From NCBI RefSeq assembly GCF_003573695.1, contig NC_039367.1, forward strand, positions 30,218,442 to 30,282,441: a DNA stretch of 64,000 nt. Reading direction: 5' to 3'. This stretch comes from Papaver somniferum (lineage: Eukaryota; Streptophyta; Magnoliopsida; Ranunculales; Papaveraceae). The notes under the pieces were generated by a model. The model had not been told where the DNA came from. It made no database searches and saw nothing but the letters and a program-made list of their open reading frames with translations. The position numbers and the translations under genes are program-made. The stretch's first letter is position 1; every line of letters starts with the position of its first letter. Of the stretch, positions 24,311 through 45,873 are shown in pieces.

Positions 24311-25087
24311 CTAGACGCCTTCATAGCTGCCATATTTAAGGGTAGAATTGTGGAGTACTATAAAGTTTCGGGGTGAAGTGTTCATTTTTTTGAAAAGATT
24401 CGCACAAGGATTTACTATGAAGATGCTGAAAAAGTAAGTATCAACTATGATAGTCTTGGTGCACAAGAACAGACTGCAGAATCCTAGTCCTTTCATCCAG
24501 CCTTCACGATCATACTCATCGTATCCAAGTTGTACGTAGTAAACTGAATCATAAGCGTCTTTCCACAGAATTTCTAGTAGTTCACCTCCAACGTCTTCTG
24601 GATGAACATCATGCTTGTAATCTTTGAATCCCCGGCCATAGATCAGTAATGTCATTTTCGCCTGTTTTGCATAATACGCAGCTTTGTTCCACTTCCTTGG
24701 CATCCTTTTAAAATTTAAGATATGTAGCTTGCCTTGGAGTGTCTCAAGGAGAGGTGCCACATATTTAAAGGAAGCTTCAGTCATACGAGGGAACATGCTC
24801 ATCGTACAGCTCTGGCAAACATTATTGACCTTTATGCCACTGCAATTAAGTCCACCGCAAAAACCAGATGCAATGTGGTTGAGAACCCGAACACCTACTC
24901 TGGAATTGCAAACTACACAAGGACTAGAACAGCCATGTTTTAAAGCAAGTTTGAGACCAGCATCTAATCCCTTCAATACTTGATAAAGATAAGTTACTCC
25001 ATCCCTTGAGAAAGAGACAGAGGCAGCTATTGGCTTTGCAGACATATTGCGCACGTATCCTCCAGAATTTGTATTTTCATCATAAAA
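24311..25087 (-). pseudogene. RNase H-like plant gene, 3' part, split by transposon
   Basis: The - strand frame begins at the transposon junction (YDENTNSGGYVRN) and runs to a stop at 24311. The N-terminal part resembles the RNase H-fold domains of plant reverse-transcriptase-derived genes: SGGYVRNMSAKPIAASVSFS, then GLDAGLKLALKHGCSSPCVV with CNSRVGVRVL, and later KWNKAAYYAKQAKM. The Cys-rich insert (CGGLNC...CQSC) is unusual. Its 5' half lies at 44446-45056. Joining both sides without the transposon and one 8-bp duplicate keeps one open frame across the site, so the insertion hit a coding exon. The last ~45 codons may be intron read-through, because they become hydrophobic. RNase H assignment is by pattern, not by search. 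Confidence 0.55.
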
Positions 25088-25127
25088 GTAACCCGTTATA
25101 GGGGCGGCATGGTTTATTAGAGGGGCG
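25088..25127 (+). repeat. Left terminal inverted repeat of the MULE
   Basis: 40 bp beginning GTAACCCGTTATAGGGGCGG. It matches the reverse complement of 44398-44437 except at two positions near the outer end. The next bases (ACATTTTAATAGG) no longer match, which fixes the repeat length. Confidence 0.9.
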
Positions 25128-25444: not shown

Positions 25445-26170
25445 TGATGTGTTTTGTAGATAGTGGTAAAAGTGGTTCGATTTCAGACTTGCGAAGGATA
25501 TTAATTAGACTTAAATTCTAATATTAAAATAGAAAACTCAATCAAAGTTGATATCAATATTAAAAGAACACTGAGGCTAAGATTTCACTATTTTCCAAGT
25601 TCAAAGTGATTTAATCCAATATTTATATTCATGCAATTTTTTCGTTCAATTTGGTTCTAAACTATTGTAACAAGTAGATTCTCAAAATAACAAGTGTAAA
25701 TCCGAAGCATAGAACATCAAAAACCTAGGTCCAAGCATGCTCTATCAAAAGAAATAACAATTGCTTAACAAGAATCATTCAAACAATTTTCACTCAAAGC
25801 AAAACAATCACAAAAATAATTGCGATAAATAAATAAATAAGAATATACCACTTTTTGTTGGAAAAATAGCTTCCTCTATCGTCTCAGAAATGGGGTTTAG
25901 CTCCTCATATTAATCATGATCTCAAAATAATTGTTTATGGCTCAAAAGATGATTAAAAAGATGAAAAGTGATAATACAGACGATTCACAACAGTTTTTTG
26001 GTGTTGCAGAATCATGGTTACAGGGAGAAATAATAGCTAAAGACCTAATGCAACATCTGTGATGAACGACACATAGGTACTGCTGTGAAACAACGATAGT
26101 TTGCTGCGACCGTTGCTTGTGCGTCAATGTTCTTCGTGTTCTTCCTCTTCAGCAGCAGCAGCAGAATAAG
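25445..26170 (-). repeat. Left LTR of the Athila array, truncated
   Basis: It starts TGATGTGTTTTGTAGATAG like the other two LTRs. It follows them for about 730 bases to AGCAGAATAAGG, then jumps directly into integrase sequence (counterpart 31207). The junction shares only AGG between the two parents. It also lacks 21 bases present in the other LTRs, between two ACTCA copies near 25548. The missing ~970 bases include its outer 5' half on the - strand. Confidence 0.92.
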
Positions 26171-26171
26171 G

Positions 26172-26870
26172 AAATGGACCCATAAAATCAATGCCACATA
26201 CATCAAAGACCTCAATCACTAAAATAGGGTTCAAAGGCATCATATTTCTACGGGAACTGGTTCCTAACTTCTGGCAACGCTCACAAAAAACACAATGACT
26301 ATGGGAATCTTTAAACAACGAAGGCCAGTAAAATCCGCACTGCAAAATCTTAGCAGCAGTCTTCTTAGCACTAAAATGACCCCCACATTCATGTTCATGA
26401 CAAAAGGAGATAATACCAGACTGGTCACTCTCAGATACACATCCCTAATAATCTGGTCCGGACAATACATAAACATATAAGGATCGTCCCAAAAGAAATG
26501 CTTAACCTCGACTAAAAACCTAAAACGATCTTGCTTACCCCAATGTTGAGGCATTCGACCAGTAACAAGATAATTCACTATATTTGCATACCAAGGTGAT
26601 TGGGAAACAGAGAACAATTGTTTATCAGGAAAACTATCCCTTATAGAAAGGGAATTATGAGGGGAACTAACAACTAGCCTAGACAAGTGGTCTGCTACTA
26701 TATTCTCAGCACCCTTTTTGTCTCTAATGTCTGGACAAAATTCTTGTAAAAAAAGGATCCATCTAATCAATCTAGGTTTGGTATCCTTCTTAGATAAAAT
26801 GTATTTCAAAGCAGCATGATAAGTATAGATTACGATCTTAGAACCTAATAAATAGGATCTAAACTTATCC
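26172..26870 (-). pseudogene. Athila pol fragment in the deleted left copy (RNase H end and integrase start)
   Basis: This block matches 31208-31911 of the right internal region with few differences. It encodes the end of RNase H ([19 protein letters not shown]) and the integrase zinc-binding start ([16 protein letters not shown] residues). It keeps one base near 26582 that the right copy has lost at about 31619, so [16 protein letters not shown] is in frame here. It has its own 1-base loss near 26445. On its right it joins at about 26871 to leader sequence whose counterpart starts at 36249, with one extra G at the joint. Confidence 0.85.
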
Positions 26871-27452
26871 AGTCAGTCCTCAACATATATGCATACGAAA
26901 GAGTCCAGTAACTCGCTGACAGGGGATTCACGAGTGTTTAGAATCTTACCTCCCGTTCCAGACGGGGGATGAATCGGTTGTAGTCGACTCGGGCCACTGA
27001 CTCCGATGTCAAGTGTACGAACCCAAGGTGCAGAGACAATATCGTAATTGTCCTCCTTCTCTGCAAACAGTTTATATTTAAAGTACCCTTCTGTAGGGTA
27101 ATAAAAAAAATAATGTCCCAAAGTCCAAAAGTCCAAAAAGAAAAGAAAAATTACAAAAATAATAAACCCTAATACAGTTTTTTTTTTTCTAAAAGAAAAT
27201 AAACAAACCCTAAACTAAAATTGTCTAAAATAAAATTGTCTTCTTTTCTGTTCTTTTTGCTTTAATCTTTAGCTCCAAGTCTTTATGAAATCACCAAACT
27301 CTTTGGCTCAATTTTCTTTATGATCCAGAACCTGTAGACACAAGATAAATACCCAAAAACATAAAAATGAACAAATATAATAACAAAAAAAAATAAAAAA
27401 TAAAAAAAATCTAAAACCCTAAAAACAAGTCCTCGTCGGCGGCGCCAAAAAT
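26871..27452 (-). other. Athila leader copy in the deleted left unit
   Basis: Counterpart of 36249-36821 (untranslated leader between primer site and gag). It is nearly identical and includes the same CCAGACGGGGGATGAATCGG phrase. The primer binding site copy is at 27430-27447. No coding function. Confidence 0.85.
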
Positions 27453-29175
27453 TGATGTGTTTTGTAGATAGTGGTAAAAGTGGTTCGATTCTCAGACTTG
27501 CGAAGGATATTAATTAGACTTAAATTCTAATATTAAAATAGAAAACTCACTAAAAATTATAGCAAACTCAATCAAAGTTGATATCAATATTAAAAGAACA
27601 CTGAGGCTAAGATTCCACTATTTTCCAAGTTCAAAGTGATTTAATCCAATATTTATACTCATGCAATTTTTTTCGTTCAATTTGATTCTAAACTATTGCA
27701 ACAAGTAGATTCTCAAAATAACAAGTGTAAATCCGAAGCATAGAACATAAAAAACCTAGGTCCAAGCATGCTCTATCAAAAGAAATAACAATTGCTTAAC
27801 AAGAATCATTCAAACAATTTTCACTCAAGGGAAAACAATCATAAAAATAATTGCGATAAATAAATAAATAAGAATATACCACGTTTTGTTGGAAAAATAG
27901 CTTCCTCTATCGCCTCAGATTTGGAGTTTAGCTCCTCATATTAATCATGATCTTAAAATAATTGTTTATGGCTCAAAAGATGATTAAAAAGATGAAAACT
28001 GATAATACAGACGATTCGCAACAGTTTTTTGGTGTTGCAGAATCACTGTTACAGGGAGAAATAGTAGCTAAAGACCTAATGCAACATCTGTGAAGAACGA
28101 TACAGAGGTACTGCTGTGAAACAACGATAGTTTGCTGCGACCGCTGCTTCTGCATCAATGTTCTTCGTGTTCTTCCTCTTCAGCAGCAGCAGCAGAATAA
28201 GGTATTTTCCTGCAACTCGATATCTGGAGCTCTGTGGTGTTCTAAAATTCTCCTAAGGTTTCGTACCCCCTATATGAGACTCGAAACAACTTATATATGC
28301 TCTACAGGTGATGATATTTCGAGAAAGATTTCAATTATCTTCCCCTTCCTTTCTCTGCAAGTCACGGACTTTTCTGCCTTTCCTTTTTCTTCTACGCGTA
28401 AACTGAGTTGTCCAAGCCTCCAGAACTCTCTCAAGACCCTAATAAAATCTTTATGAAATCTCTTATTTCCATCCTTCCACGTAACTTCCACATATTGAAA
28501 CAGAAAAATACCCGATATATTATCATCTACTCTGTTTTAAGAAATCTTATTTCTTTCCATGAATAAATCCTCCAACTTCCCTGTTTTGATAAAACAAGCC
28601 AATCACCGTACGATCTCGTGAAAAGAACTCCATGAAAATCTCACTTCAATCTTTCCTAGGGACCGAGAAAACTATCCTCCCCTGTGTTGTCGAGAACTGA
28701 TTATCCGTCCCATTTCAATCGATCCAAACTCTCATAATAGGCCTGTCTGCTCTTGATAAGTCATCCCATCAAAAATCAGCCATTGAATCTCGTTATTTCA
28801 CGTCCAACTGATGCTCCCAAATTCACGCAGGTAATAATATAGTTTCCCGCCAAAATTTGTGTTTGAACGATGAAGAAAAAGGGGGTGCCCCTATCCTCTG
28901 ATGGGGTGTAAATAGCATGCGGCAGCAAATAGTAAAGAGGATACCCCTTATCCGTAAGTGCCCCTTAGTAATTGAAGTGCCCCTTATCCAAACTGAGAGT
29001 CCGAATAGTAACTTGCTCCCACGAGCGCAAATACCACTTTTCGAGCCAATTTTCCCGCAAAGGCTTATTTCTCCAAAAACACCTACAAAGACACAAAAAG
29101 CCATAATAAATACAAAATCGAGCACTAACAATATATACAATTGAGATTATATCAGACACAAAAATGTGTCTATCA
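27453..29175 (-). repeat. Middle LTR of the Athila array
   Basis: 1723 bp, TGATGTGTTT...TGTGTCTATCA on + (TGATAGACAC...AACACATCA on the - strand). It acts as the 3' LTR of the right unit and the 5' LTR of the left unit. It is nearly identical to 36822-38523. It differs by scattered substitutions and by an extra ~14 bases near 28965-28980 that make a second copy of a TAAGTGCCCCTTA phrase. Confidence 0.93.
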
Positions 29176-29189
29176 AATACCCCCAAACC
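29176..29189 (-). other. Polypurine tract of the Athila right unit
   Basis: On the - strand GGTTTGGGGGTATT lies immediately before the LTR start TGATAGACAC. Its position and purine run fit the plus-strand primer and fix the LTR boundary. Confidence 0.75.
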
Positions 29190-30384
29190 TATTATTTGCT
29201 AGTCCTCGAGCAAAAATAAAACATAAATAAAATCTTAACTCACTGTCGCAGGCATCGTCGATTGCATTTAGCGTATGCAATAAGCCTTTAAACCCCTAGG
29301 TGGCCCTAGTGGCGGAGTGTTGTCTCCGGAGGGCTTACCAGAGGTATACCCACAAAACCTTTATACTCCGGACCCTAGCTATCTACACAGAACCTTGGAA
29401 GGCACTAAAGAATCTCCTTGGTTGGCATACTTATTGACTACAGGAGGAAGTACCCTGATGCGAAATTCCAATTGTTGTACACGAGTTCGGACTCAAGCAT
29501 ACTAAAATTCATATACAGTGACAGAGCTCTACTCAGATAGTCGCATCCAAACTCAGAATCAAACAAATCACATGGATAGATTAAGAAGATGGATATAAAA
29601 AAACATAGATGGTTTTGATGTTGATTAAGGTGAACGGTGTTTCTCATATCTGTCTGAAGGCCACTGCCATAATGAACCTATCGTAATGGACTGAGATACC
29701 GGTCTGACTAATGTCAACACATTGGCATATACAAGGGTACCAGTGGTCGATAATCCTAACTCTAGGTCAACACAACTGGCATATACAAGGTTCCAGTGGT
29801 CGACTTTATTGAATTTATTCCAGTTGGTCTGATGACTTGGTCTCAATTTTTTTTTTGTGGCTATCTCAATCACTCTATTTCACCATAGCAATGGTAACAA
29901 CTTTAATCGTGAGCCCCACATAATCACTTAGAGAAACATATTTTAAAAATAAAAAATAAAAATAGAAGTGAAAAGGACTCAATGAGAGATGGCGAAACTA
30001 CCATGTTATTTCTAACACCTGAGCTCTGTGCTTTTATGAATAGACTCTTTAGATGTTTCCATCTAATCATATTGGTCCCTCCACTCCTACAACCAAAATG
30101 CTTCCATCCACTTAGATTGGGTAGTGCCATCCTTAATAAGGATAAATTTCTAGGCTCTGGAGTTTATTTATTACAACGAAAAGGTAACAAAAAGTCAAAA
30201 AGTTCTATCTCACCCCCAAACTTAAATCTAACATTTTCCTCAATGTTTCTAATTAAAGAACAATACCAAAAATATAAGTAACATGAGGAAATAGTAAAGA
30301 GATAAGTCGGAAAGATAGTACCTGGGTGAAGTGTAACCAAAAACCTACAAAAATAATATACAACATACAAAATCGCCTCGATGG
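29190..30384 (-). other. Athila 3' internal region without an env-like gene
   Basis: Full Athila elements often carry an envelope-like frame after integrase. Here the 1.2 kb between the integrase stop and the polypurine tract contains only short frames on both strands and no transmembrane-rich coding segment. It is therefore untranslated or a lost env region. It includes the typical non-coding phrases around 29290-29450 (GTGTTGTCTCCGGAGGGCTT). Confidence 0.6.
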
Positions 30385-31632
30385 TCAATCAAGGTAAACA
30401 TGGTCCTCCAGAGGGACCTCCACAACATAACCTGTAGGAAAAGGCTCTAAAAAGGGCTTCAATCGCTGACAGTTAACCTTCGAAGAACTACTACCATCTT
30501 GTGTCTCAATCTCAACAACACCATGAGAAAAAATAGTACGGACCACAAAAGGACCGGTCCATTGAGAGCGCAACTTCCCGGGGAATAGATGCAACCGAGT
30601 GTCATATAGAAGAACTTTTTGACCTGGATAAAATGACTTTCGTAAAATATTCCTATCATGCACAAGTTTCATTTTGTTCTTATACTCCTTAGCACTACCG
30701 TATGCATCTCTACGAATCTCGTCCAACTCATTGAGCTGGAGCTTTCTTTGAGCTCCTGCCTTGTCAAGTGAAAAGTTTAAGTTCTTAATAGCCCAATAGG
30801 CTCGATGCTCTAACTCAACAAGCAGGTGACATGCCTTGCCAAATACTAAACGATAAAGTGGCATTCCAATGGGTGTCTTAAACGCAGTATGGTAAGCCCA
30901 TAAGGCATCAGTAAGCCTCGACGACTAGTATTTCCTATTTGGATTAATTGTTTTCTTTAGAATACGTTTAATTTCCCTATTGGAAACCTCTACCTGACCA
31001 CTAGTCTGAAGGTGATATGGGGTTGCTACTTTATGAGTCATACCGTATTGTTTCATTAAAAGAGAAAACGGTCTATTACAAAAGTGTGAACCTCCATCAC
31101 TAATTATAGCTCGCGGCGTACTAAAACGTGTAAGTATATTCTCTTTCAAACACTGGACTACGACCCTGTGGTCATTTGTTTTACACAAAACCGCCTCAAC
31201 CCACTTAGGAAATGGACCCATAAAATCAATGCCACATACATCAAAGACCTCAATCACTAAAATAGGGTTCAAAGGCATCATATTTCTACGGGAAATGGTT
31301 CCTAACTTCTGGAAACGCTCACAAGAAACACAATGACTATGGGAATATTTAAACAACGAAGGACAGTAAAATCCGCACTGCAAAATCTTAGCAGCAGTCT
31401 TCTTAGCACTAAAATGACCCCCACATGCATGTTCATGACAAAAGGAGATAATACTAGACTGGTCACTCTCAGATACACATCTCCTAGTAATCTGGTCCTG
31501 ACAATACTTAAACAGATAAGGATCGTCCCAAAATAAATACTTAACCTCGGCTAAAAACCTAGAACGATCTTGGTTACCCCAATGTTGAGGCATTCGACCA
31601 GTAACAAGATAATTCACTATATTGCATACCAA
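30385..31632 (-). pseudogene. Athila integrase
   Basis: The zinc-binding start includes [19 protein letters not shown] and [12 protein letters not shown] (HHCC type). Catalytic residues appear in GIDFMGPFP (first Asp), [10 protein letters not shown] (second Asp) and [14 protein letters not shown] (Glu). Between GPFP and KWVEAV about 18 residues usual for the family are missing, so the core is internally deleted. A single in-frame TAG near 30924 splits the core from the C-terminal part at 30385-30864, which holds [31 protein letters not shown] and a WTGPFVV motif. There is no chromodomain, as usual for Athila. The frame is shifted by one base relative to RNase H upstream (near 31619). Confidence 0.88.
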
Positions 31633-32147
31633 GGTGATTGGGAAACAGAGAACAATTGTTCATCAGGAAAACTATCCCTTATAGGAAGGGAATTATTATG
31701 GGAACTAACAACTAGCCTAGACAAGTGGTATGCTACTATATTCTCTACACCCTTTTTATCTCTAATGTCTGGACAAAATTCTTGTAACAAAAGGATACAT
31801 CTAATCAATCTAGGTTTGGTATCCTTCTTAGACAAAAGGTATTTCAAAGCAGCATGATCAGTATAGATTACGATCTTAGAACCTAATAAATAGGATCTAA
31901 ACTTATCCAAGGCAAACACGAAGGCTAGCAATTCCTTCTCGGTAGTTGTATAGTTCATTTGGGCATCATTCAGAGTTTTGCTAGCATAGTAAATCACATG
32001 GAGTAATTTGTTTTCTCGCTGACCTAGCACAACTCCTATAGCATAATCTGAAGCATCACACATAATTTCAAAGGGTAGGTTCCAGTTAGGTGCCTGGACT
32101 ATCGAGGCAGTAGTGAGTAAAGTTTTAAGCTTAGCAATAGCCTTTAA
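31617..32147 (-). pseudogene. Athila RNase H domain
   Basis: It follows the reverse transcriptase in the same frame after one in-frame stop (TGA at 32148-32150, replacing a Cys-like codon). It reads [19 protein letters not shown], the first catalytic Asp, then [18 protein letters not shown] with the catalytic Glu, and [14 protein letters not shown] with the next Asp. The domain is complete. It ends in a 1-base deletion near 31619 that throws the integrase out of frame; the corresponding base is present in the deleted left copy at about 26582. Confidence 0.9.
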
Positions 32148-33056
32148 TCAAGCATCATCAAAGACAAACTTAACATGTTTTGCAAGCAAATTGCAAAGAG
32201 GTCTAGAAATCGAGCTAAAATCCTTAATGAATCGACGGTAAAAACCTGCATGCCCTAAGAATGACCTTATATCTTTTACCGTTTTTGGGACCTGTAGAGT
32301 CTTAATAAGGTCAATTCTGGCTTTGTCAATCTCTATACCTTTTGAAGAAACGATGTGCCCTAAGACAATTCCTGATTCAACCATGAAATGGCATTTTTCC
32401 CAATTAAGCACTAAATTCTTTTCCTTACACCTAGTCAACACTAATGTCAAATGATGCAAGAACTCATCAAAAGATGAACCAAACACTGAAAAATCATCCA
32501 TAAAGACCTCTAAAAACCGTTCTACCATATCAGAAAATATGCTCATCATACAACGCTGAAAAGTCGCAGGGGCATTACATAACCCGAAAGGCATGCGTCT
32601 ATACGCAAAGGTACCAAAGGGACATGTAAAAGTGGGTTTCTCTTGGTCTTCTGGGGCAATAACGATCTGATTATAACAGGAGTAGCCATCTAAGAAGCAA
32701 TAATGACTATGTCCAGCTAACCTCTCTAGCATTTGGTCGATAAAAGGAAGGGGAAAGTGATCCTTCCTTGTGACCTTGTTCAGTTTCCTATAGTCAATAC
32801 AAACACGCCATCTCGTGATCACTCGGGTTGGGATTAACTCATTATTATCATTCTGGACTACAGTGATACCTGATTTCTTGGGGACAACCTGAACGGGGCT
32901 AACCCACTTACTGTCTGAAATTGGGTAAATAATACCCGCATCTAACAACTTAAGCACCTCTTTTCGAACTACCTCTTTCATGTTAGGGTTCAGTCGACGT
33001 TGCATCTCCCTAGAAGGTTTTGAGTCTTCCTCTAAATGAATCTGATGCATACACAC
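32148..33056 (-). pseudogene. Athila reverse transcriptase
   Basis: An open stretch of 302 codons covers fingers, palm and thumb. Recognisable blocks are VRKEVLKLLDAGIIYPISDS, WVSPVQVVPKKSG, RWRVCIDYRKLNKVT, MPFGLCNAPATFQRCMM and the catalytic FMDDFSVFG (an FMDD variant of YMDD, normal in this clade). The sequence is the closest to the Athila branch of Ty3/gypsy among families I know. It ends at a TGA (32148-32150) before RNase H. The upstream link to protease (33057-33309) contains stops. Confidence 0.93.
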
Positions 33057-33309
33057 CGTAGGACTTATACCCTTAATTTCTGCTATAGTCTACCCTAAAG
33101 ATTCCTTATTGTCTTAAGTACATATACTAGCCTACTTTCTTGATTACTATCCAAATCGGAATCTACAATCACAGGTAAAGTCGCAGATGGGCCTAAAAAA
33201 ACACATACTTTAGAGTATCGGGTAGTGGTTTAAGGTCCAATTTCGGGGGCTTTTCTAAAGAAGGAATTAGGGTAGTCTCAGAAACTGGTAATGGTTCGAA
33301 CCTAGCTTT

Positions 33310-34100
33310 TCATCTATCAGTGTCTAACACGGGGGTAGAATCTAATAGAGCATTCACCTGTTCAATAGTGCTATCGTCGTCAAAATCTAAACCAAAATGG
33401 GATAGACAACTTTCTAATGGGTCTTCAGACAAAATGTTTGGTAATGACTCCTGAACTAAGGTTTCTATCATGTTCACCTCTTCAACACATGTGTCATATA
33501 GCTCATGAGGTTGCTTACTGACATTAAAAATGTTCATCTCCATAGTCATATTACCAAAAGATAAACTCATCACACCATTTCGACAGTTAATGATCGCATT
33601 AGACGTAGCTAAAAATGGGCGACCTAAAATCACAGGTATCTGGTTCTCTGGGTCAGAGACAGGTTGGGTATCTAGGACCACACTGGATAAATAAACTTGT
33701 CGACCTCAATAAGAACATCCTCGATAACACCTCGAGAGATTTTAACAGACCTATCAGCTAACTGCAGTGTCATCTGAGTAGGTTTCATTTCACCAAGTCC
33801 TAGCTGTAAGTATACATGGAATGGCAATAAGTTCACACTGGCTCCTAAGTCAAGTAAAGCTTTTTCTACCCGGAAGTTACCTATTGTGCAAGAAATGGTA
33901 GGAGAACCTGGGTCTTTGTACTTTGGAGTTGTGGTGTTCTGAATGATTGAACTTACGTGACTAGCTAAAAAGGCTTTCTTATGGACGCTAAGTTTTCGCT
34001 TTCGCGTACACATATCCTTAAGGAACTTGGCATAAACAGGAATTTGCCTAATTGCATCTAATAAAGGAAGGTTTATGGTAACTTGCTTAAAAACCTCCAT
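33310..34100 (-). pseudogene. Athila aspartic protease region
   Basis: Two frames cover the protease: 33672-34100, containing the active-site box LLDLGASVNLLPFHVYLQLG (DLGAS in place of DSGA/DTGA, common in Athila), and 33310-33681, containing PVILGRPFLATSNAIINCRN, the second conserved protease block. They overlap by a frame change near 33675. Upstream of the active site the frame includes KRKLSVHKKAFLASHVSSII, a typical linker after gag. The frame change and following stops separate it from reverse transcriptase. Confidence 0.85.
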
Positions 34101-34294
34101 ATGTCATTAAAGTTCGATTCCTTTTTGTTGGTACTTAGAGGGGAAATGGGGCTCTAGGCATAAAATCAGACCTTTCAGGAACCGAATTCACATCATCAGA
34201 AACTTTATCAGTCTCTCAGCTACTGGTCCTGAGAGGTGAGATTCTGAGGGGTGAACTACAGTATGTTCACTATCGGGCATGGTTACCTTATTGT

Positions 34295-35594
34295 CTACAA
34301 CTCTACCACTCCTCTAAGGGTTCTAACAACATTCAATTGATTCGATGGTTTTGCACCTAATTCATGAACTCCTCTAGGGTTGGGTTGTGTTTGACTAGGA
34401 AACTTACCTTTTTCTCTCAAAGAATCACTTATCAGACCAACCTGGGTTTTTAACTCGGAAATAGCCTGACTATTTTCTTGTCCTATCCTGTTACTAGCTT
34501 GTAGACTCTGTTCTACGGATAACTGAAATTTTGCAGTTTGCTGAGTTAACAAGGCGAGAGATTCCTCTAAACTTAGGATTTTCTTATCTGACTGATTCTG
34601 AAACTGAGCTAGTCCTGAAGGATTCTTAGTATATCCAAAACCTGGGGGAGCATTAGAATTACTAAACTGACCTTGACTTTGGCCCTTAGACCACGAAAGG
34701 TTCGGATGGTTTCTCCAACCAGGATTATAGGTTTCTGAATATGGGTCAATCTTTTGACGGTTATCAAATCTAGTGTTATTATAAAGAGCATTGGCTTACT
34801 CTTCAATATTCTGGCCTTCCCAAAAAGGCTCCACTCTACCACTAGTCTGGCCCACTTCTAAAGCTTCTAACCTTTTTGCTATAGCAACAATTTTGGCATC
34901 TGATTCATAGCCTCCTTCTACCCTATTAACGTTTCCTCTACTTAAAAGAATTGTTTTCTGGGGTGCCCTACTATTTTCCCATTGCTGGGTTTTTTCGGCG
35001 ATTTCATTAAAAAATTCCATCGCCGCATCAACAGTTTGGTTTTCAAATCCACCAGTGCATAGAGACTCAACCATGGTCGTTGTGGAATAATCTAAACCCT
35101 CATAAAGGATCTGAACTAGCCTAACCTTTTCTAAACCATGATGAGGACATTGGGATAATAAATCATTGAACCTTTCCAAATACCTATATAAAGATTCTCC
35201 CTCTTGTTGTGAAAATGTGCATATTTGCGTCCTAATAGACGATGTTTTGTGCCTAGGGAAAAACTTATTGAAAAAGGCAGATGTAAGTTGTTCATATGTC
35301 TCAATTGACTCGGAGTCCAAACTATATAGCCACGACTTGGCCTTATCTTTCAGGGAAAATGGGAATAACCTAAGTTTCAAAGCATCATCATCTAAGCCTC
35401 TAATTCTTAGAGTACTACAAATTTCCTCAAAATCCCTAACATGGTAATAGGGTTTTCATTTCTTTCCCTAAAAAGATTGGGAGCATCTGTAAGGTCCCAG
35501 GTTTCAGTTCATAGGGTGCCTCCGTTTCAGCTAACTTAATACACGAAGGACGAGTAGTCCTAGTTGGATTCAACAAAGCTTTCAAAGTTGCCAT
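34295..35594 (-). pseudogene. Athila gag
   Basis: The gag start codon is at 35594 on the - strand (MATLKALLNPTRTTRPSCIK). The frame breaks at about 35465 and resumes at 35380. There KLRLFPFSLKDKAKSWLYSL, SAFFNKFFPRHKTSSI and LLSQCPHHGLEKVRLVQILY form the conserved capsid-like retrotransposon gag domain. Further frames at 34609-34842 and 34295-34552 continue the less conserved C-terminal half, with a helical SLQASNRIGQENSQAISELK segment. No zinc knuckle is seen, as is usual in Athila. At least three frame changes. Confidence 0.85.
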
Positions 35595-36798
35595 TTCTGG
35601 CGCTATCGGAAATGGGATTCTCCTCAGCGGACGTTCAAAAACGACTCTTCAAAATCGGACTTTATAATTAGGTAATCGAGACCTTCGAACTACTAGGTTT
35701 CTCTTTAACAAATCTACCTAGGCGTCTCTTTTACGTTCAGGCATACAAAAAAAATTGGAAGGGTAAGCAACACAATCAAGGCCGACTCAACCAAATCAAA
35801 CCTATTGATTTCTAGCAAACAAAAAGCATGATGGCTCCACTTAGATTGTTTCTAGACCAGCTTCTAATCCTTCGAACGGGAATTCGTTACAATTTAAGCA
35901 AACCCCTCTGGAATCAATCCGAGTTAACGTAAGTTGAATAGAGGCGAGGGAAGCTCGTGGAGCTTTGATACCCAAGGCCTCACCGGTATTACAAGGCGGC
36001 GCAGTCACGCATTCAACTTACAAAACCGTCAAGAACTTCGAAGTATGCTTAAAAGAGTAACCAATATTTTTCGAATGACTTTCCTGTTAAGCTCGTTACC
36101 CTATCGGTCTCGTTCTAGTCAAAATTTTAGGCTTAGGTTCGCGTAGGTTACGTGTTCCTAAAGCGGGCAAGAAGAGAACGGTGATGAAATCCGAACCCTT
36201 ATCTTGTATGGCCAGGCCTTGCCCTTTACTAGAAAAATAAATGTCCGTATTCAGTCCTCAACATATATGCATACGAAGGAGTCCAGTAACTCGCTGACAG
36301 GGGATTCACGAGTGTTTAGAATCTTACCTCCCGTTCCAGACGGGGGATGAATCGGTTGTAGTCGACTCGGGCCACTGACTCCGATGTCAGTGTACGAACC
36401 CAAGGTGCAGAGACAATATCGTAATTGTCCTCCTTCTCTGCAAACAGTTTATATTTAAAGTACCCTTCCGTAGGGTAATAAAAAAAATGTCCCAAAGTCC
36501 AAAAGTCCAAAAAGAAAGAAAAATTACAAAAATAATAAACCCTAATACAATTTTTTTTTTCTAAAAGAAAATAAACAAACCCTAAATAAAATTGTCTAAA
36601 ATAAAATTCTTCTTTTCTGTTCTTTTTGCTTTAATCTTTAGCTCCAAGTCTTTATGAAATCACCAAACTCTTTGGCTCAATTTTCTTTATGATCCAGAAC
36701 CTGTAGACACAAGATAAATACCCAAAAACATAAAAATGAACAAATATAATAACAAAAAAAAATAAAAAATAAAAAAAATCTAAAACCCTAAAAACAAG
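35595..36798 (-). other. Athila untranslated leader
   Basis: About 1.2 kb between gag ATG and the primer site, with no coding frame. Its 5' half (36249-36798) is duplicated in the deleted left unit at 26871-27429. A long leader is typical for the family. Confidence 0.75.
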
Positions 36799-36816
36799 TC
36801 CTCGTCGGCGGCGCCA
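36799..36816 (-). other. Primer binding site (tRNA-Asp-like), with copy at 27430-27447
   Basis: On the - strand TGGCGCCGCCGACGAGGA begins five bases after the LTR end. The first eight bases match the 3' end complement of plant tRNA-Asp (TGGCGCCGTTGCCGGGGA); the next ones differ at several positions. The same variant is kept in the left unit. Confidence 0.75.
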
Positions 36817-36821
36817 AAAAT

Positions 36822-38523
36822 TGATGTGTTTTGTAGATAGTGGTAAAAGTGGTTCGATTCTCAGACTTGCGAAGGATATTAATTAGACTTAAATTCTAAT
36901 ATTAAAATAGAAAACTCACTAAAAATTATAGCAAACTCAATCAAAGTTGATATCAATATTAAAAGAACACTGAGGCTAAGATTCCACTATTTTCCAAGTT
37001 CAAAGTGATTTAATCCAATATTTATACTCATGCAATTTTTTTCGTTCAATTTGATTCTAAACTATTGCAACAAGTAGATTCTCAAAATAACAAGTGTAAA
37101 TCCGAAGCATAGAACATAAAAAACCTAGGTCCAAGCATGCTCTATCAAAAGAAATAACAATTGCTTAACAAGAATCATTCAAACAATTTTCACTCAAGGC
37201 AAAACAATCATAAAAATAATTGCGATAAATAAATAAATAAGATTATACCACTTTTTGTTGGAAAAATTGCTTCCTCTATCGCCTCAGAAATGGATTTTAG
37301 CTCCTCATATTAATCATGATCTCAAAATAATTGTTTATGGATCAAAAGATGATTAAAAAGATGAAAAGTGATAATACAGACGATTCGCAACAGTTTTTTG
37401 GTGTTGCAGAATCACTGTTACAGGGAGAAATAGTAGCTAAAGACCTAATGCAACATCTGTGATGAACGACACATAGGTACTGCTATGAAACAAAGATAGT
37501 TTGCCGCGACAGTTGCTTGTGCGTCAATGTTCTTCGTGTTCTTCCTCTTCAGCAGCAGCAGCAGAATAAGGTATTTTCCTGCAACTCGATCTCTGGAGCT
37601 CTGTGGTGTTCTAAACTTCTCCTAAGGTTTCGTACCCCATATATGAGACTCGAAACAACTTATATATACTCTACAGGTGACGATATTTCGAGAAAGATTT
37701 CAATTATCTTCTCGTTCTTTTCTCTGCAAGTCACGGACGTTTATGCCTTTCCTTTTTCTTCTACGCGTAAACTGACTTGTCCAAGCCTCCAGAACTCTCT
37801 CAAGACCCTAATAAAATCTTTATACAATCTCTTATTTCCATCCTTCCACGTAACTTCCACATATTGAAACAGAAAAATACCCGATATATTATCATCTACT
37901 CTGTTTTAAGAAATCTTCTTTCTTTCCATGAATAAATCCCCCAACTTCCCTGTTTTGATAAAACAGGCCAATCACCGTACGATCCCGTGAAAAGAACTCC
38001 ATGAAAATCTCTCTTCAATCTTTCCCAGGACCCGAGAAAACTATCCTCCCCTGTGTTGTCGAGAACTGATTATCCATCCCATTTCAATCGATCCAAACTC
38101 TCATAATAGGCCTGTCTGCTCTTGACAAGTCATCCCATCAAAAATCAGCCATTGAATCTCGTTATTTCACGTCCAACTGATGCTCCTAAATTCACGCAGG
38201 TAATAATATAGTTTCCCGCCAAAATTTGTGTTTGAACGATGAAGAAAAAGGGGGTGCCCCTATCCTCTGATGGGTGTAAATAGCATGCGACAGCAAATAG
38301 TAAAGAGGATACCCCTTATCAGTAAGTGCCCCTTATCCAAAATGAGAGTCCGAATAGTAATTTTCTCCCACGAGCGCAAATACCACTTTTCGAGCCAATT
38401 TTCCCGCAAAAGCTTATTTCTCCAAAAACACCTACAAAGACACAAAAAGCCATAATAAATACAAAATCGAGCACTAACAATATACACAATTGATATTATA
38501 TCAGACAAAAAATGTGTCTATCA
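36822..38523 (-). repeat. Right (5') LTR of the Athila array
   Basis: 1702 bp, TGATGTG...TCTATCA on +. It is followed by the target duplication ATGGG (38524-38528), after which the MULE exon resumes. It is nearly identical to 27453-29175, implying that the array is young relative to the MULE damage. Confidence 0.94.
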
Positions 38524-38790
38524 ATGGGTGAGTCTCTATATGATAGAGAAAACAAGTACTACATACCTCTTGATGGAGATCCTGATATGGAGTATTTGTT
38601 AGATGGTAGAGATGTTTTAACTCAAGATGAAGGTCAATCTCAACTAAGTGAAGAAATTAACCAAGAAAGTGAAGAACCCATCACTAAAAATGATCAGGTA
38701 TACTTCTAAACTAGTTTCCATTAGCTTTTTGTTGCTCAAAATTATCTAAAGTACTAAAAGAATTAAATTTTTAAAAATTTCAGAAGAACA

Positions 38791-39248
38791 TACGGTTGGA
38801 ATTGAGCTCGGGACCAACCGTAAGTGTAGGTTACGGTTCGTAATATATCGATTACCAACCGTAACTGGTTCAATTTTGGGGGAAACCCAGAAATAAACCA
38901 GTTACGGTTGGTAAAATTTATTTCTTTACGAACCGTATGTAGCTTAGGGTTGATAATTGAGTGCTATGGTTACCAACCGTAACTCTTCATGTGCATGGAA
39001 GTATTTACTGCACATGCTACGGTTCATAAGTTGTAAAAAGATAGCAACCGTATGTATGTTACGGTTTGTTAAGGACTTTTCGTGTCCAACCGTAAGATAT
39101 CGTGTGTGTTGAAATTTAATTTTTCTATATATACGGTTTGTAAGAATAAAGAATTACCAACCGTATGATACATACGATTGGTATATGATTACAGTTAAGA
39201 ACCATAACTGTGTTACGGTTTGTGTTTACTCTTTTTTTACCAACCGTA
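38791..39248. repeat. Hairpin array 1 (TACGGTTGGTAA), in intron 1 of the MULE gene
   Basis: About eight units. Each is a 30-36 base imperfect inverted repeat with stem TACGGTTGGTAA and partner TTACCAACCGTA. Examples: 38791-38822, 38832-38863, 38903-38937. The + and - halves alternate almost without exception. Loops are AT-rich and unrelated, and only the stem is conserved, with variants TTCGTAA and TTTGTAA. Confidence 0.93.
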
Positions 39249-40090
39249 TTTGTGTATTTGTTTTCGTTTTGTTGCTTCGTTTAGGCTAATGTTGGTATAT
39301 TTTTGTCCAGGTCGTTGATATACCTCCCCTAATGGATGAAAAACCTTTAGCAAATGAAATTCTCACCCAAGATTCTAGCTTTCACTATTTAACCGAGGAG
39401 ACATGGGGTGACAAAGAAGATGTAAAGAAGTGGGCTAGAGAACGAGGCAATTTTATTAAGTGTATCATAGTTTGTAATAGTACCACTAGTGATATTACAT
39501 AAAAAAAGTCACATAAAAAAAGGTACCGTGCACCAACCAAAGACATAGAGGATGATGACTACTTTCTCTAAGAAGACCGGATACCCCTTCAAGCTTCAAT
39601 TTAAAAGGAACGCGGCTAAAAAGTTCTTCTTGGAGAAAGTTGTATGCGTTATTCATAACCACCCTATACCGGATAGTTTGCTAACACACGCTTATGCTGG
39701 ACGTCTTACCGAAGAAGAAGAGAAGATCGTAGAGTCATTGACACAAATTCGTATGAAGCCCATAGATATCGTAGCTCACTTAAAGGAAAGAAACCCCCAA
39801 AATGCTTCTACTTTTCCTAACATCTACAACGCAAGAACAAATTTGAGACTAGGATTGAATTCTGAAAGGCCATAATACATTCCTTGCCATCCCAATTCAT
39901 AGTTATGACCGAGGATGAAGATGCGTAAATGTTGTGAAGGGTGGTGAAAAACATGTTACATTTTGTGTTTTGGTATTTTGACTAAATTTGATGTGATTAA
40001 AAGTGACAATATCATATCTATTTGATTCAAGTTATGAAGGAAGTATTTTGTCAAATTAAATTTGGGTAGAGTTCAAGTTTCGGTGTAATA

Positions 40091-40238
40091 TACGGTTTGT
40101 AAAACAGTTAAGTTCCATAACGTAGCTACATACCGTTGGTAAGTATAAGATTGTTACCAACCGTAACTACCTTCTCAAACCTTTTACAACTGCCATTGTA
40201 AGTTATGGTTGGTTACGATAATGTAGTTACCAACCGTA
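40091..40238. repeat. Hairpin array 2, between the convergent MULE genes
   Basis: Two to three units of the same stem after the end of the + gene: TACGGTTTGTAA at 40091 with TTACCAACCGTA near 40160, and TATGGTTGGTTACG with GTTACCAACCGTA ending at 40238. A half unit, TACCGTTGGTAAG, sits in between. Confidence 0.88.
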
Positions 40239-40442
40239 ACTACCTTCACAAACCAATTATAGCTGCCTTTGTCATTTAAAACCATTAAATCATCTTCATT
40301 ACTAAATAAACATTACAACCATTGAACCATTACAAATATAAATGATATTACAACTCATTCATGCATGCGACTTAAAAGGATACTAATATCCCGGTCTACG
40401 AGTGCGATAAAAGTCTTTAAGGATGTGGAAATGAGGTAAGTA

Positions 40443-40784
40443 TTAAAAACTCGACCTTTTCCATCGTCTCCATTCTTGAATAGAGCTCTCTAAAACTTCA
40501 GCGTCAGTTTCACCCCTTAATCGTATGTGACCCATAATACGAACTAATTCCATAAATTCTTGAACGTTATCCCGCATATTTGCATATCGAACATACAACA
40601 TAATTCCATCGCGGTGATTAGGGTTACCTGTTTCGGAACAAAAGTTTTCAAAAAGAGTTCTCAAATAACTTGTACTCATAAAACCACATTGACGTCGTTC
40701 TTCTTCTCTTTTTGGATACCAAAGAACATAGTTGCGGTAAATACATAAATCTTCTTCCAATGTAAATTCAGGGTTTGGAGCCAT
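40443..40784 (-). CDS. Small SANT/Myb-like protein (113 aa), MULE-encoded
   Basis: An uninterrupted frame from ATG 40784 to a stop at 40443, 113 codons. It opens MAPNPEFTLEEDLCIYRNYV, a pattern of tryptophan-like and acidic residues resembling the first helix of the SANT/Myb-like domains found in transposon accessory proteins and NAM-like plant proteins. It continues with FENFCSETGNPNHRDGIMLY and ends in QEWRRWKRSSF. A DNA-binding role is inferred. It lies tail to tail with the + strand gene, between hairpin arrays 2 and 3. It is the only intact frame in the element, which may mean recent activity or chance. Family assignment is by pattern only. Confidence 0.5.
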   Translation of the reverse strand: MAPNPEFTLEEDLCIYRNYVLWYPKREEERRQCGFMSTSYLRTLFENFCSETGNPNHRDGIMLYVRYANMRDNVQEFMELVRIMGHIRLRGETDAEVLESSIQEWRRWKRSSF

Positions 40785-40982
40785 AATATAGTTTAAGGTA
40801 GGAGATGATTCATGTGGAGGTGTAACTTCTAGTAAGGAGGATAAGCATATATATATATAAATTATGTTTTTTTTTTTATGATGTAACGGATCTAAAACAT
40901 TGAAGGCTTCAACGGATATATTTTCAAATGTGATAAAGACAACTCAGTAGATAAGGTAGAGAATATCCAGGAAATATAGAGT

Positions 40983-41420
40983 TACGGTTGGTAACTAAAA
41001 TACTATTACAAACCATATATAACTGACGGTTGGTAAGTTTATCAAAAGTTACACACCGTAACTCTGATAAAAAACTAGTTACAGGTCTACGGGTCACTGT
41101 TCAGTTACAATTACCAACCATAACTCTGCAAAAACATTTATACCAGAGTTATGGTTGATGATTTTTATTCTTTACCAAACATATGTGTGTCCTCTCAAAA
41201 ACTCAAAAGTTCCAGGATGTTATACGGTTGATAAAGTAAAACAATTACAAACCGTAGGTATTCTACGGTTTGTAAGCTAAAAGAATTAGCAACCGTAAGT
41301 TTCATATGTCCAACTTCACCATATTTCAAAAGTTTAAGGGTAATATACGGTTGGTACTGAGTTTCCATTACACACTGTAGGTATTGTACGGTTTGTAATG
41401 GTAACTCATTAGCAACCGTA
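40983..41420. repeat. Hairpin array 3, between the two - strand MULE genes
   Basis: About seven alternating units, e.g. TACGGTTGGTAAC at 40983 pairing with TTACAAACCATA near 41010, and TACGGTTTGTAAG...TTAGCAACCGTA near 41270-41300. The last unit ends at 41420. Several stems are decayed (TATGGTTGATG, ACACACCGTA). Confidence 0.9.
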
Positions 41421-41625
41421 TATTACCCTGAAACTTGACATTTTCTTTGTAAATCAAGTAGTAACTAAGCACACAGTTCATAAGTAATTCATAAGCTAAA
41501 ATCCATAACCACACAATTCATAACATGTTTGTGATAATATCCATAAGCAAAAAACTTACAAAAACAAACCACACAAAGCTAAGAAATAAAAATTTGTCTT
41601 GCTATCAAATGTCACACAACCATAA

Positions 41626-44087
41626 TTAAGCATTGCGACCACGACCTCTTTTGTTGGTGGTACCACCACCACGAGTGCGAGGACCACCACTATGACCACC
41701 GCCCTTACGACCACCGCGACCACCTCTTTGGCTAGTACCCACATCATACAAATCCTCTTCGCTGCTAGATGACGGATGATTATGGATAGTACTCGCACCT
41801 CTAGTGGACTTTCTGCTCCTTTTTAACCCTCTTTCTTCCGTGAGCAACCCCTCGTACAATTCCTTCCGGTTTGGATCATGCATATACCTTATTTTCTCTT
41901 GTAAGGTCCTTTGTTGAGGAGGTTCAATCACACCTCCAGCACGGATGCATGAAGTCAATCTATTAGCCAATCTTTGTCCTCGCTCTTTCTATTCACACAT
42001 AAAAAAGAGTCTTAAGAGATTGATGCATAGTACATAATATAAATTAGAACTAAATTCCAAGTCATGAGGATAAAAAATTTACGTAACGACATGAAATATA
42101 GTTTCTTCCATGTCATACCATATAGTCCCTTTGTCTCTTTGCTTGCCTCGGCAGCCAACCTTTTTTCTATTGCCTTTTGAATAAGTGGCTGGGCCTCCGG
42201 ATCATTATTAATCACATGTGGATGACCAAAATGATAATACCAATCTGTTTAATCATCAACGGCTTCCTTCGTGTTGTTACAATCCGTTTCCTCTCCAAGT
42301 GCGAGTTGGTATTCTTCTTTATAGCGGTTGTTCCAAACATCAACCGTCGGAGTTGGGCGGTAGTTGAGTACAATAGTGGGGCCTTTTGTCTCGGATCCCT
42401 CCTGACATAATTGAAGTTTTCCTTAACGAAAATTCCTTGAATATGAGCAATTTGACGTAGAGTTCGACGAGGATTGGTCATAACATAACCGGTGGCAAGA
42501 TAAAATGGCCAATAACCAGCCCTTTGACACTTGAGAAATTTGTTCGCCCTTGCATGATCCTTAAAAAAATACAAACATATTTTGCTAAACTAAGATTAAC
42601 GAAATATACATAAATACAAACAAAAAAAAAATAGAAATAAATTATAAAAATGTGTTAAGAGAAACATACCCTAGTCGCACAGACTTTTGCGGCCCAGGAA
42701 TTGGTATAACCAAATAAGATTGAGGACTTATCTGGTGGCTCTCCCCAGGGACATCTATTCTTCTTATGTGGCAACATCAGATCTTTTCCTGTAGGAATAT
42801 GCAACCCTTTTGGTGCGGGTTCCTTTCTCGTCTTCTTTTCTTTAACTGGTTTGGCTCGAGGTAGAGTTGTAGCTACGACAATTTCTTTCCCCTTGTTTTG
42901 TACTCCCTTTTCATCATTTGCTTCCTCTTCCTCATCTTCATCACTTTCTTCCTCTCCCTCCTTTTCATTATTTCCTTCTTCTTCCTCCTCTTCACTGTAT
43001 TCATGAGTAATTACTTCCTCTTCTTCAATTTGTTGATCATTATGCTCACCTCCTTCTAATTCAACCCCAGAGTTACTTACAAATGGTTCTCTTAACCTAA
43101 TCTCAAACTGATTCTTCTTCTTCACATGGTCACCTCTATGATCTACCCCTAAATGCTTGTCACCACGAGGGGTGGGTGTATGATCAATGGGAGTTAAGTT
43201 ATTCCCTCTCTTATCTTGACCCTATCAGGATTCCTACACAAGCAATACATTTGTATGATTTATTAAAGGTTGAACAAACAAGATACAAACAAAGAAACTC
43301 AAAATATATTGAAACACAAAACATACGGTTGGTAATGAGATGTCCAGAACAATCGTGTAAAAGATATGGTTCATAATTGTTCAAAGTTACAAACCGTGTA
43401 AAAGAAACGGTTGGTAACTTTGGTTTCGTCTCCAACCGTGTAACAACTTTGAAATTGGTTTGAGCATCAGGACGACATACGGTTGGAGACTAATGATACT
43501 TACGTGCCGTAACTATTCTACGGTTCATAATTTCTTGTACCGTAGAATGAAATTCTATACGTCACACAACTCAAAAGTACGGTTGATAATCAACAAACAT
43601 TAAGTACCGTATAACACATACGGTTGGTTACGAACTCATAGTTACGAACCGACTAGAAAAAAATCAACATGCAGGAAGGAATACGGTTCGTAATAGGGTG
43701 TCCCGTACCAACCGTATCTTCACAAAAAACTCAAACCCTAGAACATACGGTTCGTTATTTTTGATGATTTCAATTGTTACGAAACGTATATGCATCAAAC
43801 AGTTCAGATACGGTTGGTAATTGAAACAATACCAACTGTAGAAACCTCATTTCCAGAGTTCAAATTCTAATTTTGAACCTAAAATCCTAATTTTTGATAT
43901 AGAATACACTTAAATTGAACAGAATACACAAAATAATAACTGGGTTTTTGATTACATACCTCATATAAGTCATTAATCCTGATTTCTCAACTTGAGGAGT
44001 TTGGAATTAGGGTTCTTCACCGGTTGAAGGATTTTGTTGATTTGAAGCCGTTGAATCTTCGTCATTCTTCTTCTTCTTCTTCGTCAT
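41626..44087 (-). pseudogene. MULE accessory gene: acidic protein with RGG-rich tail
   Basis: Probable exon 1 starts at 44087 (MTKKKKKNDEDSTASNQQ), has a stop shortly after, and ends at donor GAG|GTATGT near 43968. Intron 1 is occupied by hairpin array 4. The next exon (about 43220-42671) includes GDKHLGVDHRGDHVKKKNQ, a long Glu-rich stretch and CPWGEPPDKSSILFGYTN. It ends at ACTAGG|GTATGT. After acceptor TTTTTTTAAG (42560) comes DHARANKFLKCQRAGYWPF; frame changes then lead to NNRYKEEYQLALGEETD and NDPEAQPLIQKAIEKRLAAE (42012-42215). The last exon (41626-41970) ends in an RGG-rich tail with KRGRGRNA. The W-G-x-P-P-D block faintly recalls plant mobile-domain proteins. Function unknown, possibly nucleic-acid binding. 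Frame breaks show decay. Confidence 0.5.
43324..43840. repeat. Hairpin array 4, in intron 1 of the accessory gene
   Basis: About ten alternating units from TACGGTTGGTAATG at 43324 to TACGGTTGGTAATTG...ACCAACTGTA at 43809-43840. Units include ACGGTTGGTAAC...CTCCAACCGT and TACGGTTCGTAATAG...TACCAACCGTA. The array is bounded on both sides by the probable exons of the - strand gene. Confidence 0.92.
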
Positions 44088-44397: not shown

Positions 44398-44437
44398 CGC
44401 CCCTCTAATAAACCATGCCGCCCCTATAACAGGATAC
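44398..44437 (-). repeat. Right terminal inverted repeat of the MULE
   Basis: Reverse complement reads GTATCCTGTTATAGGGGCGG and continues for 40 bases, matching 25088-25127. It is followed by the target duplication TCATAAAA at 44438-44445. Confidence 0.9.
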
Positions 44438-44445
44438 TCATAAAA

Positions 44446-45424: not shown

Positions 45425-45665
45425 CAGGGAATTCAGAGGAGATTTTCCATGGATTTCATGTCAAAAAATAACATTTTTATGACCTTGTTGAATGAGGAAG
45501 GCCACGAGTATAATAAGATATGTTACCTTGCTAAATAGTCTGCATTGAGTGGTGACTGGGCAGGGTTTGCCAAGGCTCTCAATTTACAAGAGGGGCACTG
45601 GTTTTCCAATTGGTAAACCTTGATAAGTTCAAGGTCTACATTGCAAGGACATATCTTTCTCAAGG
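45425..45665 (+). pseudogene. B3-domain exon remnant
   Basis: After a splice acceptor (TTAACAG) the + strand reads GIQRRFSMDFMSKNNIFMTL and LNEEGHEYNKICYLAK, a stop, then SALSGDWAGFAKALNLQEGH. After a 1-2 base slip it reads NLDKFKVYIAR. This is the second half of a plant B3 DNA-binding domain, with the G-x-S-G-x-W-x-x-F-A core and the F-x-V-Y-I end strand. The stop and slip make it dead. A shorter reverse copy (LQERDTLVFQLINLDKFKV) lies at about 46470-46550 on the - strand in the right arm. No other exon of the gene was recognised. Confidence 0.62.
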
Positions 45666-45873
45666 TATCCTTCTCAGGGCATGTTCTTGTGATTGCAGTT
45701 TGTGCTGAATTCTTGTAGTTTAGTTACTTCCACCTAGTTGTGCTATATATATGAATGTAAATTAGGCAATGCTGATGAGAATTTGAAGCGGGAGGAAAAA
45801 CATGTGCGCGTACCTTTGGCTGTTATTGAAGACAACGGTACTGAAAATCTCCCATTAAAATTTTAAGATAACT

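Follow-up and report, generated by a model that had tools for sequence, protein, structure and literature searches.

Sequence-specific anti-silencing of transposons has been described for the VANDAL elements of Arabidopsis, with Spm and MuDR of maize as related cases (PMC10398659). In the VANDAL systems, VANC21 and VANC6 bind different short motifs that are arrayed in the non-coding regions of related elements (PMC5735166), methylation is lost across the element (PMC5735166, PMC10398659), and related families have related proteins alongside different motifs (PMC5735166, PMC10398659). Activation of Spm by TnpA likewise correlates with demethylation (cited in PMC10398659). A comparable organization is described here for a degenerate Mutator-like element (MULE) in a 64-kb stretch of the Papaver somniferum genome (the window, meaning the whole stretch analysed), in which a short motif is arrayed across two introns and two intergenic gaps.

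PMD proteins form the other relevant background. MULEs that have captured a PMD-C domain are described from grasses and Amborella, with the PMD fused to the transposase, and Ikeda et al. speculated that the captured PMD serves anti-silencing (PMC5418596); the function of the plant-transposon PMD is described as unknown (PMC7156037, PMC5418596). The PMD proteins MAIN and MAIL1, together with PP7L, have been linked to a promoter "DOWN" motif, an instance of which, CATGCAGTTT, lies in the MORC1 promoter (PMC9899485, PMC7156037), and the passages on these proteins in the same two reports mention no arrays of that motif. No description of such arrays in PMD-bearing MULEs was found in literature titles and abstract openings, a search that did not extend to subscription literature.

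The poppy locus shares features with each of these systems. The nearest well-characterised parallel is VANC of the VANDAL elements. Like VANDAL21 and VANDAL6, the poppy locus has arrays of a short motif in introns and intergenic parts, and related families differ in motif (PMC5735166, PMC10398659). VANC carries DUF1985/DUF287 (PMC5735166), whereas the additional poppy proteins are a PMD protein and an unclassified small protein, and the open reading frames of the window and the relatives scanned gave no Pfam match to DUF1985/DUF287. Like the grass and Amborella PMD-C elements, it combines a MULE with a PMD (of whichever clade, A, B or C), although the poppy PMD has a gene of its own, transcribed from the other strand, belongs to a eudicot and is accompanied by putative binding-site arrays (compare PMC5418596). 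As with MAIN, MAIL1 and PP7L, PMD proteins are found together with a short DNA word; the DOWN word differs from the poppy word, with at best 7 of 9 letters shared by eye, a weak likeness (PMC9899485, PMC7156037).

The comparison extends to En/Spm, where a short motif is also found in both orientations and is read by an element protein. The motif read by TnpA is subterminal and 12 bp long, and CACTA ends are defining for En/Spm. Unlike En/Spm, the poppy family has a MULE transposase, internal arrays and a different motif, and the ends of the element in the window are not of the CACTA type. By analogy, the poppy system would work like VANC or TnpA and be a member of neither group.

Arrays of alternating half-sites

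The window contains 56 half-sites of ANWTACGGTTNGTAA (motif 1), arranged in four arrays within and between three genes, here called gene 1 (MULE transposase), gene 2 (a small protein) and gene 3 (PMD type):

38791..39248, array 1, inside the first intron of gene 1 (38699-39311, boundaries placed by reading), 18 half-sites
40091..40238, array 2, in the gap that separates gene 1 from gene 2, 5 half-sites
40983..41420, array 3, in the gap that separates gene 2 from gene 3, 15 half-sites
43324..43840, array 4, inside the first intron of gene 3 (43234-43959, boundaries placed by reading), 18 half-sites

An earlier reading of this DNA from the letters alone (the sequence-only reading) had given the same four ranges, had placed them in introns and intergenic gaps, and had described alternating + and - halves that do not occur elsewhere in the window; the counts confirm the arrays and their coordinates. 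With up to two mismatches allowed, TACGGTTNGTAA matches the window 70 times, compared with 15.8 times (standard deviation 4.0) in shuffles, and 54 of the 70 matches lie inside the arrays. A site matrix trained on the arrays themselves finds 54 sites of at least 11 bits in the 1,644 bp of array as against 5 in the remaining window, and at 12 bits or more the corresponding numbers are 51 and 1. The half-sites originally called numbered 57, of which a weak overlapping call at 43533 was removed before spacings were counted.

Orientation alternates in 48 of 52 neighbouring pairs within arrays, and 26 pairs of + and - neighbours lie no more than 31 bp apart. The start-to-start distance from + to - in these pairs is 22 or 23 bp in 20 cases, 20 bp in three, and 24, 25 and 31 bp in one case each, and the step from each - to the next + measures 19 bp in 10 of the 12 close cases. 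The CGGTT core is the best-kept part of the half-site and variants are common at positions 8-9. Conservation also extends past the 12 bases, with A at position -2 in 39 of 56 half-sites, A rare at position -1 (3/56), and A or T at position 0 in 48/56. The CG dinucleotide is kept in 403 of 439 half-sites, and in 46 of 57 in the window, a figure of little weight since the matrix itself rewards CG.

The half-site as the conserved unit

The two halves of the inverted pairs do not covary. Within-pair identity in the window is 9.38 of 12 positions as against 9.42 for shuffled partners, with 2 matching double changes and 62 single changes. Among 155 distinct pairs from 33 arrays, partners are slightly less alike than chance would give (identity 9.60 versus 9.80, a difference inflated by related copies), and 8 matching double changes stand against 353 single ones. 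The spacing between hairpins in the window is also about as fixed as the spacing within them. With no covariation between the halves, what is conserved is the half-site with its spacing rather than the pairing of a stem; selection on hairpins is rejected by the covariation tests, and the proposal of the sequence-only reading that the stem is selected or copied as a pair is not supported.

Homologous arrays provide a measure of constraint. At 60-90% identity, a range that holds 84 of the 112 ordered pairs (all between different loci and, through shared ancestry, not independent), motif divergence is 0.086 and spacer divergence 0.192, a ratio of 0.45 (bootstrap over arrays 0.38-0.54). Core positions 2-7 diverge at 0.27 of the spacer rate, while position 8 is spacer-like, and control labels shifted by 8-12 bp give ratios of 1.2-1.4. 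The 26 younger pairs, at 90-97% identity, point in the same direction more weakly (motif 0.037, spacer 0.055).

A separate observation concerns position 8, which is alike in 67 of the 155 pairs, drawn from the window and from L005-L024, where 79.3 (standard deviation 4.4) would be expected, a deviation inflated by related copies; it hints at a preference for unlike half-sites.

Helical phasing

Same-orientation half-sites in the 33 arrays lie 4, 5, 6, 7 or 8 helical turns apart, with neighbour distances peaking at 41-42, 52-53, 61-64, 71-74, 82-84, 102-105 and 113-115 bp. Vector strength at a period of 10.4 bp is 0.74 in these partly related arrays (n=363) and 0.60 when the 41-bp class is left out (n=205). 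When one array is taken from each of six groups that show no blastn similarity to one another, the values are 0.81 (n=74) and, without the 41-bp class, 0.74 (n=41). A further 17 arrays from PMD introns, some related by descent to the first set, give 0.68 (n=207) and 0.52 without that class (n=127), and 10.4 bp is the highest of nine periods tried in them. Two inner geometries occur, 20 + 21 and 22/23 + 18/19, each totalling about 41 bp. The phasing leads to a directly testable prediction about structure, namely that protein assembles side by side along a single face of the helix.

Family copies across the genome

Exact copies of the pair pattern, a sequence identical to its reverse complement, number 920 in the 2.7-Gb assembly, whereas the reversed control has none. 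A sample of 20 regions of 10 kb, those that come first along one contig (C1) and were chosen for the presence of an array, was compared, and all 20 also hold a family end or a family gene; the end was accepted leniently, at up to 9 mismatches in 33, and one region (L012) depends on an end alone. Similar motif density outside the family, which the sequence-only reading had named as contrary evidence, was thus not encountered in the sample. Other copies keep the arrays, both in PMD introns and in the case of array 1, which recurs between the same gene 1 exons in L005, L008, L016, L017 and L022.

Nine short copies have both ends 1.07-1.27 kb apart around a central array, and no family gene was found between their ends except in L015, L021 and L023, where a piece of gene 1 exon 1 survives. 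In the short copies the distance from array to end is for the most part 380-450 bp, although L018 has 246 bp on one side. Among 11 copies examined for a target duplication, an exact 8-bp duplication is present in five (the window copy, L010, L013, L019 and L021) and a 7-bp one in L015, L023 has none, and L006, L009, L017 and L018 show only a 9-11-bp match with one mismatch, possibly by chance.

A second motif in a sister clade

A genome search with a PMD protein gave at least 240 matching stretches, and the region upstream of 25 PMD copies was compared. A motif-1 array is present at 17 of these loci, an array of a different word, TTACGYCTAGGTT (motif 2), at seven, and neither at one (L030, which by reading looks shortened there); none of the 25 has both. 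The first 16 loci, at 65-98% PMD identity, include 15 with motif-1 arrays of 7 to 25 sites. Four loci at 61-64% identity carry motif-2 arrays at the same intron, with a 42-bp period, and no motif-1 array was found in these four, only one stray motif-1 site in L043. A matrix trained on motif 2 finds 67 sites in the four loci and none in the same stretch of the 16 others. Motif-2 sites also alternate, with + to - distances of 25 bp in 15 of 25 cases and - to + distances of 17 bp in 7 of 21, together 42 bp. Five later copies comprise two with motif 1 (L059, 64%; L060, 67%) and three with motif 2 (L057, 63%; L058, 64%; L061, 61%, with one stray motif-1 site).

A PMD identity of 64% alone fails to separate the motif classes, but the tree does. 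Among 18 labelled PMD cores, the motif label changes once, with support of 100/100. Synonymous divergence (dS) of the PMD is 0.36-0.43 among motif-1 clades and 0.81-1.04 across the split, so that motif 1 is unchanged at about 0.4 and replaced across about 0.8-1.0. The loci left out of the tree were L020, L016 (75 aligned amino acids) and L031-L038. The distant L020 (42% PMD identity, with a motif-1 array) had been tried as an outgroup, but its array proved to be half of a short element 93-95% identical to L010 and L013, and the locus was therefore dropped and the tree rebuilt.

The ends of the motif-2 elements L041, L043 and L044 differ from motif-1 ends at 9-12 of 33 positions, where the best chance match has 14 or more mismatches in most loci; no end could be recognised in L042 or in some motif-1 loci. 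A complete change of word with similar architecture is as expected if protein and word evolve together. The sequence-only reading had counted relatives without the arrays against itself; some relatives do lack this motif, yet the same intron then carries an array of a different one, which fits a protein-DNA pair and is not a refutation. Two putative word and protein pairs from one genome would thereby be available for swap experiments.

A third motif was considered for L042 and rejected, as the intron there carries motif 2 and the other word belongs to a satellite upstream. This satellite, with a unit of about 77 bp rich in GGCTTGGC, occupies the first ~900 bases of the locus (PMD-oriented), upstream of the motif-2 PMD gene.

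Proteins of the family

Fuller copies of the family encode a MULE transposase, a PMD protein and the small gene 2 protein. The MULE transposase domain PF10551 is found in L017 (expect value, E, 5.3e-27) and L005 (6.2e-27) and is absent from the shortened copy in the window; the match of the MULE transposase to FAR1 is weak (E 2e-4, under its curated cut-off). Five homologues of gene 3 were found in Papaver somniferum (P0001-P0005), of which four (P0002-P0005) score above the Pfam cut-off for PF10536, the PMD core being missing from the window copy. Gene 2 has one database relative (P0006) and at least 150 scored matches in the genome. The sequence-only reading had called this 113-amino-acid protein SANT-like; none of five homologues matches a Myb/SANT profile in Pfam at E up to 10, and a search of PDB sequences likewise lends the label no support.

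Among the matches listed, gene 2 identity is 81-88% in the vicinity of motif-1 PMDs for which a gene 2 is listed, including cases in which the PMD itself is at only 64-70%, and 72-79% near four motif-2 PMDs; the other three motif-2 PMDs have no gene 2 among the 150 matches listed. The ratio of nonsynonymous to synonymous divergence (dN/dS) is about 0.3 for both gene 2 and the PMD across the motif-1/motif-2 split (one motif-2 copy in the case of gene 2). In near-copies it is mostly 0.6-1.3 (0.15 in one gene 2 pair), and recent copies may therefore be unconstrained or decaying.

Proposed function and alternative explanations

Half-site constraint, phasing, retention of arrays in relatives and in short copies without intact genes, the motif switch and the MULE domain of relatives all argue that the arrays are very probably bound by protein, and the suggestion of a binding-site array in a MULE made by the sequence-only reading is strengthened by the same evidence, including PF10551. 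The reader protein is probably encoded by the family, and its role is likely to be anti-silencing or transcriptional activation, not transpososome assembly. The combined account, in which binding half-sites serve a sequence-specific protein that acts for the MULE family in an anti-silencing or activating system read in trans, appears somewhat more plausible than not. In such a system the reader would be an element product, either the gene 2 protein or the PMD protein of gene 3 and less likely the transposase, and would occupy the half-sites on one face of the helix in dimeric or oligomeric form. Acting in trans, it would mark the members of the family so that epigenetic silencing is either kept off them or undone, which would allow the transposase to be expressed and the ends to be mobilised.

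Placing the complex that moves the element, rather than its regulation, at the arrays seems unlikely to be correct, with the sites as extended subterminal repeats bound by the FAR1-type N-terminus of the transposase. Fuller copies do have a transposase (PF10551, with the weak FAR1 match) and short copies retain ends plus array. However, the arrays are internal, at the distances from the ends given above in short copies and across introns and gaps in long ones, and the terminal repeats of the window lack the motif (best score 5.1 bits). The array word has also changed while the ends of three motif-2 elements still resemble motif-1 ends, a weak point, some loci having no recognisable ends. Recruitment of a host MYB-type factor, which would make the array a hijacked enhancer, is less likely again. 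The best-kept CGGTT falls within a core, CNGTT / AACCG, that we take to resemble host MYB sites, but a complete change of motif from one sister element to another within a single host is better accounted for by a reader that the element encodes, and the likeness to the MYB AC-element word, ACCAACC, is interrupted by the common variants at positions 8-9.

The mostly alternating inverted repeats, together with a 107-bp near-palindrome in array 3 (41330-41436), would suit RNA or cruciform hairpins, for example as a source of small RNAs, an option that the sequence-only reading had kept beside protein binding. It is now highly improbable, since the two stem halves vary independently both in the window and in the 155 pairs and the spacing between hairpins is about as fixed as that inside them. 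The view that the arrays have no function and arose neutrally as a 41-bp unit was duplicated, in tandem and inverted, deserves as little credence: local duplications exist, such as 41180-41297 and 41303-41420 in array 3 (71% identity), but the motif diverges at 0.45 of the spacer rate while neighbouring shifted windows do not, and spacings of 5, 6 and 7 turns do not correspond to whole numbers of such units.

Several observations nevertheless weigh against an anti-silencing system read by a family protein. Direct and inverted duplications within the arrays mean that sites and spacings are not all independent, and the phasing of motif 2 is weaker (0.59 at 10.4 bp, highest 0.62 at 10.6 bp among six periods, in related arrays). 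The gene 2 protein, one of the candidate readers, matches no recognised DNA-binding family (Pfam at E up to 10; PDB sequence search), and both of its structure models are poor (pLDDT, a model confidence score, 44 and 52). The regions of L005, L016, L017 and L022 have arrays, gene 1 and PMD pieces without a gene 2 between them, although gene 2 could act in trans on the arrays of copies that lack it. An argument for gene 2 as the reader, that its identity tracks the motif better than that of the PMD, is withdrawn, the apparent tracking having vanished once synonymous divergence, which shows the motif-1 clades to be younger, was counted. VANC21 motifs lie in one orientation (PMC5735166), in contrast to the mostly alternating and helically phased poppy sites, and the genic PMD proteins MAIN and MAIL1 of Arabidopsis promote silencing (PMC5418596).

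With its other proteins, similar arrays and clean motif switch, the poppy MULE family would make convergence with the VANDAL systems testable and would give the plant-transposon PMD a concrete functional hypothesis. A more far-reaching proposal, offered tentatively and with less confidence than the account above, is that plant MULEs have evolved sequence-specific anti-silencing a second time and independently, with the poppy family as the example. Its reader, the gene 2 protein or the PMD protein, would polymerise along one face of the DNA on the phased alternating half-sites, reader and word would have been switched together between subfamilies, and each family would free only its own copies from silencing, including those without intact genes. 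If true, a mechanistic role would for the first time be assigned to the PMD that many plant transposons carry.

The element and its surroundings

The element that hosts the arrays has a net length of 6.3 kb, with ends at 25088 and 44437. It begins and ends with GTAACCC / GTATCCT followed by GTTATAGGGGCGG, and its terminal inverted repeats of about 40 bp and exact 8-bp target duplication are those of a MULE, for which duplications of 8-11 bp are usual. The sequence-only reading was right to call it Mutator-like, as the domain in its relatives indicates. The element also reaches further to the left, its left end lying at 25088 beyond a 13-kb array of long terminal repeat (LTR) retrotransposon sequence. 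The features in order are as follows:

25080..25087, left target duplication TCATAAAA, 8 bp, exact match to 44438-44445
25088..25127, + strand, left terminal inverted repeat, 41-bp inverted match (95%) to the right end, core at 25095
25445..38523, - strand, LTR-retrotransposon array inserted in the MULE at the gene 1 start codon, outside the array system
38524..38698, + strand, gene 1 exon 1, MULE transposase N-terminus (MGESLYDREN...), tblastn 75-86% in L005, L008, L016, L017 and L022
39312..39872, + strand, gene 1 exon 2, frame-broken and without the MULE catalytic core; the homologous open reading frame of L017 has PF10551
40386..40844, - strand, gene 2, small protein with one in-frame stop (MAPNPEF... 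at 40784-40446), 84% to P0006
41626..43233, - strand, gene 3 later exons, PMD (PF10536) type, PMD core deleted, one frame break and an in-frame stop, compared with P0001-P0005
43960..44087, - strand, gene 3 exon 1 (MTKKKKKNDED...), one in-frame stop, matching the P0004 N-terminus
44398..44437, - strand, right terminal inverted repeat, pairing with the left end
44438..44445, right target duplication TCATAAAA, exact copy of the left one

The splice junction of gene 3 is placed by P0004, between ...LMTYMR and NPDRV..., and array 4 therefore lies in intron 1 of that gene. The LTR-retrotransposon insertion is flanked by a single 5-bp ATGGG duplication (25440-25444 and 38524-38528). It consists of one retrotransposon with three LTR copies (about 25445-26171, partial; 27453-29175; 36822-38523) that share two internal stretches, as in a recombined or tandem LTR-internal-LTR array.

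Other repeats lie outside the element, and no viral contig matched the window. At 12619-12836, tandem 43-bp units each contain an inverted repeat, GGCGGACTTTAAAAGTCCGCC, forming a second array of inverted sites with unrelated sequence. A self-inverted repeat of about 1 kb (80% identity) at 45574-46553 contains a 189-bp tandem repeat, and positions 1-2003 and 3524-5508 are direct duplicates in several blocks at 78-83% identity.

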